A stretch of DNA of 64,000 nt from Cupriavidus phytohabitans. Lineage in GTDB: Bacteria > Pseudomonadota > Gammaproteobacteria > Burkholderiales > Burkholderiaceae. The stretch spans positions 1 through 64,000 of the forward strand of contig NZ_AUFE01000024.1 in NCBI RefSeq assembly GCF_000426345.1, written 5' to 3'. The notes under the pieces are model-generated. The model saw only the letters and a list, made by a program, of their open reading frames with translations, made no database searches and was not told where the DNA came from. Shown piece by piece: positions 19,064 through 63,859 of this stretch (positions are counted from its first letter, which is position 1; each line of letters starts with the position of its first letter). The position numbers and the translations under genes were made by a program.

Positions 19064-19188
19064 GGCTAGGCTCCTGTCAGTAAGAATGCGCCGAAACTCG
19101 GCAACGTTGACCCGGGCGAGGCGCCTTTTTAACGATTGTTGACATTCGCCCGGCGGGCTACCGGCGATCGCCCGGCGGCGGCGCGTGG

Positions 19189-59694: not shown

Positions 59695-60028
59695 TCCGGG
59701 CCGGCCCGCGCGGCCGGTCCCCATCCGTTCCGCTACAGGCCAGGGCGCAGTGTCTGCGCCCTGGCCTGTCGTCTTTTGCGCACCGCCGTGGCCTCTCAGC
59801 CCAGTGCCCAAGCTGCATGGCGGCATTTGCGCGACGCACCAAAACTGGAATATGTAGCGGCCAGACAACGGATTCGCACCAAAATCCTGCTTGAAAGCCG
59901 GGCTTGGCGGACATTTGTGTCCTTACTGCTAACGTTTTGTTAAATTTTCGCCGGCGTTTACACGAAACGTAGACCTTCGTCCCTGCCGTGATCCGGCGGA
60001 GAACAGTACAAGACAGAAAAGGAGCACC
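59695..60028. other. minE-porin intergenic region
   Basis: 334 bp. The first part holds the minCDE terminator (59736-59768). The rest becomes AT-rich near 59925-59950 (GCTAACGTTTTGTTAAATTT) and is probably the porin promoter and operator region. A clear -35/-10 pair was not identified. An AAAGGAG site precedes the porin ATG. Confidence 0.6.
59736..59768 (+). terminator. rho-independent terminator of minCDE
   Basis: A 15-bp perfect stem (59736-59750 with 59754-59768; arm CAGGCCAGGGCGCAG) with a TGT loop, then TCGTCTTTTG. It lies 42 bp past the minE stop. Confidence 0.9.
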
Positions 60029-61108
60029 ATGAAGAAATCGGCCATCGTCCTCGCAGCCGGCAGCCTGTTGGCGGGTTCGGCATTCGCCCAGTCGTCCGTC
60101 ACCCTGTACGGTATCGTTGACCAGAGCATCCGCTTCCAGACGAACTCGAGCGCCAACAACGACAACTCGTGGGAACTGACCAACGGCGCAGTGACCAACA
60201 GCCGCTGGGGCCTGAAGGGCAGCGAGGCCCTGGGCAACAACCTGAAGGCGATCTTCCAGCTGGAAAACGGCTTCGATCCGGACACCGGCCGTGCCAACCA
60301 GGGTGGCCGTCTGTTCGGCCGTCAAGCCTATGTGGGCCTGTCGGGCGACTTCGGCACGATCAAGCTGGGCCGCCAGTACACCGAAGGCTTTAATTTCTTC
60401 GGCGACTACGATCCGCTGACCATCGGCAACTACACCAACAACGCCTGGCCGTTCTTCCTGACCAACTTCCGTAACGACAACGTCGTCAGCTACGGCGGCA
60501 AGTTCGGCGGCCTGGACGTTGGCGCCAGCTACGGCTTCGGCGAGCAGCCGGGCAGCATGAGCCAGAACCAGTACTGGGGCGCGCGTGCCGCTTACACCTA
60601 CGGTCCGTTCGGCATCGGCGGCGTGTACCAGGAAGTCCGCAACACCACCGGCCAGAAGCAGCAAATGTGGGGCGCTGCCGGTAAGTACTCGATCGGCCCG
60701 GCAAAGATCTTCCTGGGCTACATCGGCGGCCAGGACCGCACCGGCTCGGTCGACGCTTCGCTGAACTTCACCGGCGGCGCGACGCAGAACCCGGTCCCCG
60801 CTGGCGGCAACTTCGCGGCTAATCCGCGCAAGGACACCATCGGCTACATCGGCATGACCTACCAGGCCACCCCGGCACTGGCCCTGACCGGCGTGTTCTA
60901 CGGCGACTACGTCGAGAACGTGAACGGCGTGAACGACAACAACGGCCGCCGCTACACCGGCGTGCTGCTGGCCGAGTACTCGCTGTCCAAGCGCACCCAG
61001 GTCTATGGCACCGTGGACTTCAACAAGGTCTCGGGCGGCACCATCACCGAAATGCCGGGCCGCAACAACCAGACCGGCGCCGCCGTCGGTATCCGCCACA
61101 TCTTCTGA
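60029..61108 (+). CDS. general outer-membrane porin (OmpC/Omp32 type)
   Basis: A 359-residue trimeric porin. Signal peptide MKKSAIVLAAGSLLAGSAFA, mature start QSSVTLYGIVDQS, many alternating beta strands and a C-terminal Phe (VGIRHIF) needed for outer-membrane assembly. TNSRWGLKGSEALGNNLKAI and GRQAYVGLSGDFGTIKLGRQ are hallmarks of the Betaproteobacterial porin family. It is expressed from its own promoter region and ends at a terminator. The transcript is likely abundant; its codons are notably optimal. Confidence 0.96.
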   Translation: MKKSAIVLAAGSLLAGSAFAQSSVTLYGIVDQSIRFQTNSSANNDNSWELTNGAVTNSRWGLKGSEALGNNLKAIFQLENGFDPDTGRANQGGRLFGRQAYVGLSGDFGTIKLGRQYTEGFNFFGDYDPLTIGNYTNNAWPFFLTNFRNDNVVSYGGKFGGLDVGASYGFGEQPGSMSQNQYWGARAAYTYGPFGIGGVYQEVRNTTGQKQQMWGAAGKYSIGPAKIFLGYIGGQDRTGSVDASLNFTGGATQNPVPAGGNFAANPRKDTIGYIGMTYQATPALALTGVFYGDYVENVNGVNDNNGRRYTGVLLAEYSLSKRTQVYGTVDFNKVSGGTITEMPGRNNQTGAAVGIRHIF

Positions 61109-61135
61109 GCGTTACACGATCAGCAGTCGATGGCG

Positions 61136-61160
61136 AAAGGCACCTCCGGGTGCCTTTTTT
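61136..61160 (+). terminator. rho-independent terminator of the porin gene
   Basis: A 9-bp stem (AAAGGCACC at 61136-61144 with GGTGCCTTT at 61149-61157), TCCG loop and six T from 61155. It lies 28 bp after the porin stop. Confidence 0.94.
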
Positions 61161-61179
61161 CATGGGCGCGCGCCTGCCC

Positions 61180-61887
61180 TCATGCGGCAGCGCGCTCGAT
61201 CCGTTCCAGCCGGTAGCCATGCGTGTAGACCGGCGTCAGCCGCAGCGCCCGCGACGCCTGCAGGCCGAGCTTGCTGCGCACGCGCGACACATGGGTATCG
61301 ATGGTGCGCGACAGCGACGAGATCTCGCGCCCCCAGACCGCGGCGGTGATATGGTCGCGCGTGACGATGCGGCCCTCGTTGCGGAACAACAGCACGGCGA
61401 GGTCGAACTCCTTGGGCGTCAGGCAGACAGGATGTCCGTTGCAGGTGGCTGAGCGCATGGCGCAGTCGAAGGCGTATTCGCCCAGCCGCAGCGGGGCGTG
61501 CGGCGACTGCACCGCAGGATAGGCGCGCCGCAGCAGGCATTCCACGCGGGCCGAAAGTTCGGCGGGACGCACCGGCTTGACCATATAGTCGTCGGCGCCG
61601 GCGGCGAGCGCGCTGATGATGTCCTGCTCGGCATCGCGCCCGCTGAGAAACATCACCGGCACGCGCCGGTCGAGATGCGTGCGCACCCACGCCAGCACCT
61701 CGCGCCCGGACAGGTCCGGCATCGACCAGTCGAGCAGCAGCAGGTCGAAGCACGCATTGCGCAGCGCCAGCAGCAGCTTGCGGCTTTCAGTGAAGGTCAC
61801 GCACTCATGCCCGCCGCCGGCAATGATCCGGCGGATCAGCGCCGCATCGGCGGGCGCGTCTTCCAGCGATGCAATCTTCTTTCCCAT
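61180..61887 (-). CDS. OmpR-type response regulator
   Basis: A 235-residue regulator. The receiver is complete: E9-D10 in IASLEDAPADA, D53 in LLLLDWSMPDLSG, Ser in FLSGRDAE, K104 in YMVKPVRP. The winged helix has LTPKEFDLAVLLFRNEG and RTIDTHVSRVRSKLGL. No kinase gene is near. It is divergent from a closely similar regulator (62174-62854), with 286 bp between them, and converges with the porin. Start MGKKIAS at 61887. Confidence 0.93.
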   Translation of the reverse strand: MGKKIASLEDAPADAALIRRIIAGGGHECVTFTESRKLLLALRNACFDLLLLDWSMPDLSGREVLAWVRTHLDRRVPVMFLSGRDAEQDIISALAAGADDYMVKPVRPAELSARVECLLRRAYPAVQSPHAPLRLGEYAFDCAMRSATCNGHPVCLTPKEFDLAVLLFRNEGRIVTRDHITAAVWGREISSLSRTIDTHVSRVRSKLGLQASRALRLTPVYTHGYRLERIERAAA

Positions 61888-62173
61888 GTGTGGTCTCCGG
61901 CGACGTTTGCCGGCCAGGGCAGCGCACCATGGCTGCCGGCCGTAGCGGGTCATTTAAGACCGCGCGACCGGCGGGACGAATAGGAAAGACCTCAATTCAG
62001 GCTTTCAACAATCTTTTACTTCTTGCCTCGGCACCGTGCCCATAACATGGCATCGCCGCGGCGCCGGGCAACCGGCGCCGATGGCACAACCGCGTCAGCA
62101 TTTGCGTTTGAGTTCCCGTTTGCATTCCTGCCCGCATTCTTTGCCGGTGGCACGCCCCGGCAGGAGCACGACC

Positions 62174-62854
62174 GTGAAGATTGCCTCGCTGCAGACCGAT
62201 CCGACCCTTGCCATCCGCATCGAACAGACCCTGCGCCTGGACGGCCACCAGTGCCGCCGCTACCTGAGCGGCCGCACGCTGCTGGGCGCGCTGCACGCCG
62301 AGACGTTCGACCTGCTGATCCTCGATTGCGAAACGCCGGGAATCCCGGCACTGGATGTGCTGGCGTGGGTGCGGCGCTCGCTCGGCCATGACCTGCCGGT
62401 GATGCTGACCGGCGGCTCGAACGAAGAGGGCTTTGTCGCGGCCTGCTTTGCGCAGGGCGCCGACAGCTACCTGCCCGCGCCGCTGCGGCTGGGCGAGCTG
62501 GGCGCGCGCGCGCAGGCGCTGCTGCGGCGCGTGCGGCCGGCCACGCAGGCCTGCGACGTAGCGCATGGCGCGTTCCGTTTCGCCCCCTCGGAGCGGCGTG
62601 CCTGGGTGCATGGCAGGCCGGTGCCGCTGGCGCCCAAGGAGTTCGACCTGGCCGTGCTGCTGTTCCGGAATCTCGGCAGCGTGGTGCCGCGCCAGACCAT
62701 GGTCGACCAGGTGTGGCGCCACCACGTCGAGCCGACCTCGCGCACGGTGGACAGCCACCTGTCGCGCGTGCGCACCAAGCTGTCGCTGTGGCCGCACAAC
62801 GGCGTGCGGCTGTCGTCGGTCTATGGGCTGGGAAGCCGGCTCGATACCGCCTGA
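62174..62854 (+). CDS. OmpR-like regulator with degenerate receiver
   Basis: A 226-residue protein starting at GTG 62174, seven bases after a strong CAGGAG site. It is clearly a paralogue of the regulator at 61180-61887: KEFDLAVLLFRN and RTVDSHLSRVRTKLS match in the winged helix. The receiver keeps D51 (LLILDCETPG) and T79 but has lost the acidic pair (Q7-T8 in IASLQTDPT) and the conserved Lys (A102 in SYLPAPLRL). So Mg2+-dependent phosphorylation is doubtful. It may act constitutively or form heterodimers with its neighbour. Confidence 0.88.
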   Translation: MKIASLQTDPTLAIRIEQTLRLDGHQCRRYLSGRTLLGALHAETFDLLILDCETPGIPALDVLAWVRRSLGHDLPVMLTGGSNEEGFVAACFAQGADSYLPAPLRLGELGARAQALLRRVRPATQACDVAHGAFRFAPSERRAWVHGRPVPLAPKEFDLAVLLFRNLGSVVPRQTMVDQVWRHHVEPTSRTVDSHLSRVRTKLSLWPHNGVRLSSVYGLGSRLDTA

Positions 62855-62869: not shown

Positions 62870-63859
62870 TCAATCGGCCTTGATGCCGGCTTCCTTGACG
62901 ATGCGCGCGTTCTCCGCGTACTCCTCGCGGATCGCCTTGGCGAATTGCGCCGCCGTGCCGCCGGTAGGCACTTCGCCGCCCTTGAGCAGGCGCTCGTGGA
63001 CTTCCGGTTCGGCCAGTGCCTTGTTCAACTCGGCATTCAGGCGATCGATGATCGCCGCGGGGGTCTTGCCCGGCGCGAAGACGCCGAAGGTCGAAGTCAG
63101 GTTGGCCTTGGGATAGCCAAGCTCGGCGAGCGTGGGCACCTGCGCCAGGCTATCCAGCCGCCTGGGAGCGCCGACCGCCAGCGCGCGCAGGCGGCCGGCC
63201 TGCATATGCTGGGTCAGTGCCGGGCTGGCGTTGGTGCTCATCACCTCGAACTGGCCACCCAGCGCATCGTTCATCTGCTGGCCGGCGCCCTTGTACGGGA
63301 TCAGCGTGATGTCGGCCTTCGACTTCTGCCTGACCTGTTCCAGCACCACATGGCCGACCGTGCCCAGGCCCGAGGTCGCCCAGCGCACCGAACCCGGCCT
63401 GGCGCGGGCCTGGCCGACCATGTCGGCGAAGCCCTTGCCGCTGAAACCGTTGGTGGCGACCACCAGCACCGGCGAGTACATCACGCTCATCACCGGCGCC
63501 ACGTCCTTCTGCGGGTCGTAGTTGACGTGGCCGACATGCGGGTTCAGCGTCAGCGGGCTGGTCGAGGCGAAGCCGAGCGTATAGCCGTCCGGCGCTGACT
63601 TGGCGACGGCGTCGATGCCGATACTGCCGCCGGCGCCGGCCTTGTTCTCGACCACCACGGAGGTGCCCATCTGCGCCGACAGGCGCTCGCCGAGCGCGCG
63701 CGCCACGGTGTCGCTGATGCCGCCAGTCGGATAGGCGACGATCAGGCGGATCGGGCGGCTGGGGTAGTTGTCTGCGGCGGCGGCGGGCAGTGCGGCGGCG
63801 GCGAGCAGGCCGGCGGCAACGGTGGCTGCCAGCAGGGTCGGGCGGAACAGGAAGGCCAT
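62870..63859 (-). CDS. Bug-type solute-binding protein
   Basis: A 329-residue periplasmic protein with a signal peptide (LLAATVAAGLLAAAALPAAA) and mature start DNYPSRPIRLIVAYPTGGIS. AGAGGSIGIDAVAKSAPDGY and DITLIPYKGAGQQM are Bug motifs. It is only distantly similar to the Bug protein at 21264-22271. No transporter genes are beside it. The stop lies 15 bp from the convergent stop of the regulator gene. The ligand is probably a carboxylate. Confidence 0.93.
   Translation of the reverse strand: MAFLFRPTLLAATVAAGLLAAAALPAAAADNYPSRPIRLIVAYPTGGISDTVARALGERLSAQMGTSVVVENKAGAGGSIGIDAVAKSAPDGYTLGFASTSPLTLNPHVGHVNYDPQKDVAPVMSVMYSPVLVVATNGFSGKGFADMVGQARARPGSVRWATSGLGTVGHVVLEQVRQKSKADITLIPYKGAGQQMNDALGGQFEVMSTNASPALTQHMQAGRLRALAVGAPRRLDSLAQVPTLAELGYPKANLTSTFGVFAPGKTPAAIIDRLNAELNKALAEPEVHERLLKGGEVPTGGTAAQFAKAIREEYAENARIVKEAGIKAD

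Follow-up and report, generated by a model that had tools for sequence, protein, structure and literature searches.

A divergent pair of OmpR-family regulators in Cupriavidus, one of them with a pseudo-receiver

Pseudo-receivers, or atypical response regulators, are defined as PF00072 domains that lack one or more of the catalytic residues DD, D, T and K, and a 2025 perspective gives their share in a representative bacterial set as about 6% and calls their on/off switching a mystery (PMC12632262). Residue loss in the regulator considered here is therefore, taken alone, not rare. CmrR/CmrT of Clostridioides difficile is a linked pair of OmpR-family regulators in which a full receiver stands beside a pseudo-receiver, encoded in one operon with the kinase CmrS; the full-receiver member is reported to bind upstream of its own operon, heterodimers were observed in pull-downs but not in two-hybrids, and the authors doubt an origin by duplication (PMC12548384). 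BldM and WhiI of Streptomyces are two atypical regulators that form homo- and heterodimers with different targets (PMC4125116, PMC12632262, PMC12548384); they are not co-transcribed, and no kinase-like partner gene is mentioned in the accessible portions of two of these papers (PMC12632262, PMC12548384). HP1043, CosR, ChxR and RitR combine degenerate or non-canonical receivers with a winged-helix output; they have been studied singly, and several regulators of this kind are reported to be active without phosphorylation.

Here we analysed a pair of regulators, P and M, in a 64,000-nucleotide stretch of Cupriavidus phytohabitans DNA (hereafter the window). Like CmrR/CmrT, they are linked OmpR-type regulators of which one has a complete receiver and the other a pseudo-receiver. 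Unlike CmrR/CmrT, P and M are divergent paralogues that share no operon with a sensor kinase, the nearest HATPase_c domain being 50 kb off, and the kinase partnered with them survives in relatives only in degenerate form and is missing from the window. P resembles HP1043, CosR, ChxR and RitR in its receiver and output domains; in contrast to these, it belongs to a divergent pair in which the losses vary by lineage. Neither this pair nor its kind is described among the open-literature titles and abstract openings listed by our searches.

P (positions 62174..62854, plus strand, 226 aa) begins with a GTG codon preceded by AGGAG, and M (61180..61887, minus strand, 235 aa) points away from it across a 286-bp intergenic region (61888..62173), as the first-pass annotation had described. 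Both contain Response_reg and Trans_reg_C domains above the curated Pfam cut-offs, and the Pfam matches, the structure model of P and its fold matches all place the pair in the OmpR/PhoB family. M is separated by a 71-bp gap (61109..61179) from a Porin_4 gene (60029..61108, plus strand), which lies tail to tail with it as a neighbour; P lies tail to tail with a conserved neighbour, the gene of a TctC-type solute receptor (62870..63859, minus strand). P and M stand head to head in 55 of 60 Cupriavidus genomes. In the rest, P is at a contig end in two, P occurs alone, without M, in one, another showed just a third type of regulator, and G055 was left out at this locus; no M was found in G036 at 1e-40. 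Among stretches of 4-8 kb, the TctC gene was on P's side in 28/28, and the porin together with min-type genes, which we take to be minC, minD and minE, was on M's side in 27/28, the one miss being a contig end. A terminator-like hairpin of 16 pairs (59735-59769) lies between the min-type genes and the porin. P is 92% identical in Cupriavidus sp. LEh25, 78% in C. necator SHC 2-3 and 70% in C. laharis. Interrupted genes were found for M in three loci (L045, L061, L064) and for P in two (L079, L080).

Receiver residues and dimer face

At the five catalytic places, P of the window has Q7, T8, D51, G80 and A102, so that four of the five residues are lost and Asp51 is kept. M has E9, D10, D53, S82 and K104, all five being present. 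The first-pass annotation had indeed noted Q7-T8 in place of the acidic pair, A102 in place of the Lys, the retained D51 and the completeness of the minus-strand paralogue, and each of these was borne out. It overlooked the fourth loss, at the Ser/Thr place, because T79 resembles that residue; the ungapped alignment puts T79 one residue early and Gly80 at the place itself. With a Response_reg (PF00072) score of 38.6 bits (cut-off 30.2; M, 70.6 bits) and four of the five residues gone, P is a pseudo-receiver protein by the published definition. It is not an aspartate-less receiver (ALR), since D51 is present, and the Asp is absent in 6/56 relatives.

We then scored 56 P (without the interrupted copies of L079 and L080), 53 M (without those of L061 and L064, and with the frameshifted M of L045) and 25 hand-chosen copies of a third paralogue, among which L083 and L099 are nearly identical and from which L156 was omitted (neither a FecR nor a kinase match, but likewise an intact receiver). 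A complete set of five residues is present in 4/56 P, 36/53 M and 25/25 third copies, and Asp51 is retained in 50/56 P. An intact receiver in relatives, which the first-pass annotation had named as a refutation of its reading, thus occurs in only four of the 56. Only the window species and the four relatives closest to it have lost the Lys; in the next group of P, about 77% identical, the Lys is present and the other losses are shared with P of the window. On a tree of P built without the catalytic columns, some inner branches of which are weak, the fewest changes that explain the data are four and one at the first and second acidic places, one at the Asp, five at the Ser/Thr and three at the Lys.

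Both proteins could be scored in 51 loci: only P is broken in 34 of them, P and M together in 13, only M in three and neither in one, so that at least one broken receiver is found in 50/51. The 13 loci with both receivers broken, and the genome that has P without M, speak against the view that a dead receiver is always paired with a live one. In L076, L078 and L081 the receiver of P is intact and the phospho-acceptor Asp of M is Glu, and the roles look reversed.

A further difference between P and M was found outside the active site, at the K-4 place. This place, which we mapped to P together with the PhoB and RegX3 residues by way of the K-4 position and an alignment with RegX3, corresponds to Asp97 in RegX3 and Asp101 in PhoB (PMC4511772, PMC10609481); the accessible part of one source gives the RegX3 residue as Asp96 (PMC4511772), whereas the K-4 place points to Asp97. 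In PhoB, R115D lowers DNA binding and activity and D101R partly restores both (PMC4511772). The K-4 residue is Asp in 53/53 M and 25/25 third copies, and Ala, Ser or Gly in 56/56 P (S98 in the window, where the facing R112 is kept); the facing Arg is retained in 55/56 P. The Asp is missing even in the four P with intact catalysis, and the change common to all P therefore sits in the dimer face and not in the active site. This change would suit a P-M dimer with the Asp contributed by M, and heterodimers are thus indirectly suggested; P-P dimers may form as well, through different contacts.

The strongest alternative is that P and M are separate homodimeric regulators, with P constitutively active, controlled only by transcription and forming no heterodimer. 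The genome with P and no M and the 13/51 loci in which both receivers are broken are consistent with it, as are the fifteen known pseudo-receiver structures that the perspective counts as dimeric without phosphorylation (PMC12632262). However, loss of the K-4 Asp from 56/56 P, with the facing Arg kept in 55/56, would weaken a canonical P-P interface, and we consider separate homodimers a serious but somewhat less probable arrangement.

The kinase-like gene beside M and the origin of the pair

The first-pass annotation had stated that no kinase is near. This is correct for the genome of the window, in which the only HATPase_c match on the contig (10704-10985) is 50 kb to the left of the pair and no HATPase_c match was found in the 33 kb between the pair and the contig's right end. 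It does not hold for relatives: 28/55 head-to-head loci contain a kinase-like gene, here called HKL, a roughly 230-300-codon open frame that comes immediately after M on the same strand and separates M from the porin. The distance from M to the porin is 753-1028 bp with HKL (18 HKL loci with the porin inside the stretch) and 77-318 bp without it (27 loci), and HKL is absent from the 71-bp gap of the window. Judged across these loci, the kinase-less state of the window is a derived one, because HKL directly follows M in 28/55.

HKL carries a His box (H[DN]LR) in 27/28 copies. HisKA was matched only below the cut-off (E 0.06-0.07) in two of four copies tested with Pfam, HATPase_c was found in none of the four, and nucleotide-binding boxes were not seen by eye in a 12-row alignment of the 28 HKL. 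HKL thus shows the ATPase degeneracy of kinase-derived histidine phosphotransferases and appears to resemble Spo0B, ChpT and PhyT, degenerate histidine kinases that serve as phosphotransferases with the phospho-His region kept and the ATPase lost (PMC5898713); in contrast to these proteins, HKL is known from sequence alone. Without an ATPase domain, HKL cannot be the sole source of phosphate for M. Its frame is split in L040 and L045, and its pN/pS is 0.32 (four pairs).

Where HKL is present, M is intact in 27/27 loci; where it is absent, in 9/26 (Fisher p 1e-7, which ignores kinship). P is broken in 26/27 and 23/26, respectively. On the tree, HKL changes at least five times and the state of M three times, and independent pairs show either the same direction or no difference, never the opposite (sign test p 0.5, few events). 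The HKL-M link would accordingly stand on few independent events. It may instead be an accident of kinship, with HKL an inert remnant and the losses in M unrelated to it; the small number of changes and the 9/26 loci that keep an intact M without HKL are in line with this. Against it, no broken M was found in 27 HKL loci, and HKL keeps its His box in 27/28 copies and has a pN/pS of 0.32. We regard an accident of kinship as rather unlikely.

Two further relatives of the pair are encoded in the same genome, C58:30513 (40-47% identical) and C20:28299 (36-37%). The first, the third paralogue, leads an operon of response regulator, FecR-type protein and CHASE2 histidine kinase (RR-FecR-CHASE2; L085:4348-9338). 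A FecR or kinase match was found beside the third-type regulator in 27/28 loci of the genus and beside the regulator in 29/40 loci of other genera, for some of which the flank covered no more than 1.5 kb; FecR-type or kinase neighbours are also annotated in Paraburkholderia largidicola and Eleftheria terrae, and are not annotated in P. ginsengisoli. In a quick tree of 184 sequences, which left out duplicate loci, the distant own-genome paralogues (L005-L025), frames below 200 aa and BLAST scores below 110, P and M each fall into a clade of their own (SH-aLRT 99 and 98); the stem of the P clade is long, and the joins between groups are weak. Sequence comparison shows P and M to be of the same family as the regulator of the genome's own RR-FecR-CHASE2-histidine-kinase operon. 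A search of 70 stretches from the pair loci at 1e-10 gave no FecR-type match and one kinase match, between the CHASE2 kinase and the HKL of locus L034 (29% identity across 141 aa, E 2e-11), so common descent of the two is likely, if thinly shown. In the BiofilmReg operon of Burkholderia contaminans, RR-FecR/LysM-kinase (PMC5192318), the genes are ordered as in the operon that the third paralogue, the kinase-linked relative of the pair, belongs to. In contrast, the pair loci have neither a FecR-type match (0/70 stretches) nor an intact kinase beside the regulators, and the pair is thus not of the BiofilmReg type.

The second relative (C20:28299-28925; L086:9743-10594) also has a degenerate receiver, with the acidic pair, the Ser/Thr and the Lys gone, and lies tail to tail with what looks to us like an EAL-GGDEF protein. 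In another genus, L131:3001-4668 holds two relatives head to head that fall outside the P and M clades; both of their receivers are intact and a CHASE2-type kinase is alongside.

The divergent intergenic region and the porin

In the 286-bp region between P and M, the middle ~100 bp are conserved and the flanks are not. The conserved core CTTTCAACAATCTTTTACTTCTTGCC (62002..62027, plus strand) is proposed as a shared operator. It lies 15 bp ahead of TAACAT (62043..62048, plus strand; TACCAT in relatives), a putative -10-like element for P, and 16 bp from TCCTATT (61979..61985, minus strand), a putative -10-like element for M; a consensus scan found no promoter. The core is matched at 22-26 of its 26 bases in 24 loci and at 10-19 in the other 27. 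It has no second match within the window (0 in 100 shuffles), and as a 20-mer it has no match with fewer than three mismatches elsewhere in the genome; one match with three (C23:63231) is about what chance would give by our estimate. The core profile scores 41.1 bits at the core itself and finds nothing in the upstream stretch of the third paralogue (best -1.9). An 11-bp direct repeat in the core is not significant, 494 of 5000 shuffles reaching such a repeat, and it was accordingly not read as a PhoB box. At 19120-19151 of the window, overlapping profile matches on both strands (14.7 and 11.6 bits) form a near-palindrome.

The first-pass annotation had pointed to the adjacent porin as a candidate target of the pair. 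The porin does adjoin M, and it is a conserved neighbour (27/28 stretches of 4-8 kb), yet the two genes converge tail to tail and the upstream region of the porin is ~1.86 kb from the divergent region. That upstream region holds a block conserved in its own right, without the core (21 of 31 loci aligned). Its best match to the core profile, at 5.7 bits, exceeds the baseline (95% of 300 random 430-bp stretches score 4.4 bits or less); however, it ranks eighth in the window, is AT-rich and falls 35 bits below the true site. These data do not support control of the porin by the pair, which we consider quite improbable. The stretch 59890-60028 (TTTTGTTAAATTTTCGC ... GTTTACACGAAACGTAGAC), which precedes the porin gene, shows high conservation across the genus.

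Selection on P and the fate of the locus

For ten sister pairs picked by eye from the tree, pN/pS was 0.25 for the receiver and 0.30 for the DNA-binding domain of P, and 0.27 and 0.22, respectively, for those of M; by this measure the receiver of P is under purifying selection. Over all pairs of 51 loci, which are non-independent, the receiver of P diverges 1.36x as fast as that of M, and the pooled dN/dS is 0.49 for P vs 0.39 for M. The recognition helix reads S-R-T-x-D-[ST]-H-x-S-R-x-R, alike in P, M and the third copies; the named residues are found in 56/56 P, save that the first Ser is Ala in 10, in at least 51/53 M and in 25/25 third copies. A structure model of P was built from eight sequences (mean pLDDT 81.8, pTM 0.56); superposition of its receiver on solved receiver chains gave 1.0-1.5 A for five of them. 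The fold matches include CosR, RitR and an atypical orphan regulator (2hqr). Full-length TM-scores are only 0.36-0.59, because the two domains are placed differently in each structure, and only the receiver superposes closely.

It is conceivable that P is still controlled by phosphorylation of Asp51, through the CHASE2 kinase of contig C58 or acetyl phosphate, given that Asp51 is kept in 50/56 P and that a kinase of the parent family exists in the genome. However, P of the window is without the metal-binding pair, the Ser/Thr and the Lys, and the Asp itself is gone in 6/56 relatives, which makes such control very unlikely. Least probable is that P is a duplicate in decay that is turning into a pseudogene: receiver residues have repeatedly been lost and P is interrupted in L079 and L080 (the L080 genome is 86% complete and has neighbouring genes split too), whereas 56/58 copies are open over at least 200 codons, the receiver pN/pS of 0.25 is close to M's 0.27 and the recognition helix is nearly fixed.

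Taken together, the pair is real, conserved and under selection; pseudo-receivers are already known, and we infer its function from sequence. The first-pass interpretation stands in part. Residue counts, pN/pS and the conserved head-to-head arrangement support a selected, genus-wide pseudo-receiver regulator beside a full-receiver paralogue. We propose that the locus is probably a two-component system being dismantled, in which P would act without phosphorylation. As the sequences show, M has a complete catalytic set in every locus with HKL and has often lost residues of it where HKL is gone, and HKL may act, or may have acted, on M's receiver. P, whether HKL is there or not, has lost catalytic residues step by step and more than once, and has kept its fold, its DNA-reading helix and purifying selection; in the window species, HKL has been lost, with M still intact and P among the most eroded. 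P would bind DNA with no need for Asp phosphorylation, the amount made and its partner determining how active it is, and P and M, with nearly the same recognition helix, would act on one conserved element between their promoters. More tentatively, P may prefer M as its partner, since its K-4 Asp is gone and its Arg is kept for M's Asp to hold. Several findings count against the proposed dismantling: the small number of independent HKL-M events, the lack of an ATPase domain in HKL, the 13/51 loci with both receivers broken, the genome with P and no M, the interrupted copies of either gene, the faster divergence of P's receiver over all pairs, the non-significant repeat and the poor core match in 27 loci. 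The retention of Asp51 in 50/56 P also counts against it and is unexplained by plain drift.

A bolder extension of the dismantled-system proposal, which we hold to be possible and on balance doubtful, is that a duplicated two-component locus was rebuilt by decay, with P tied to M and HKL dedicated to M. An early change in the dimer face would have bound P to M; the duplicated kinase would have lost its sensor and ATPase and become HKL, a dedicated phosphotransferase or phosphatase of M; and loss of HKL would free the receiver of M to decay, even to the phosphomimetic-like Glu of L076, L078 and L081, where the receiver of P is the only intact one. If this is true, the genus would display, as a natural series, how control of a single operator passes from phosphorylation-dependent to phosphorylation-free, with the window representing the step right after the loss of HKL. 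At one locus in one genus, receivers are found in complete, half-broken and fully broken states beside one candidate operator, in some loci together with a degenerate kinase and in others not, and the order of events in the dimer face, the kinase and catalysis is therefore directly testable.
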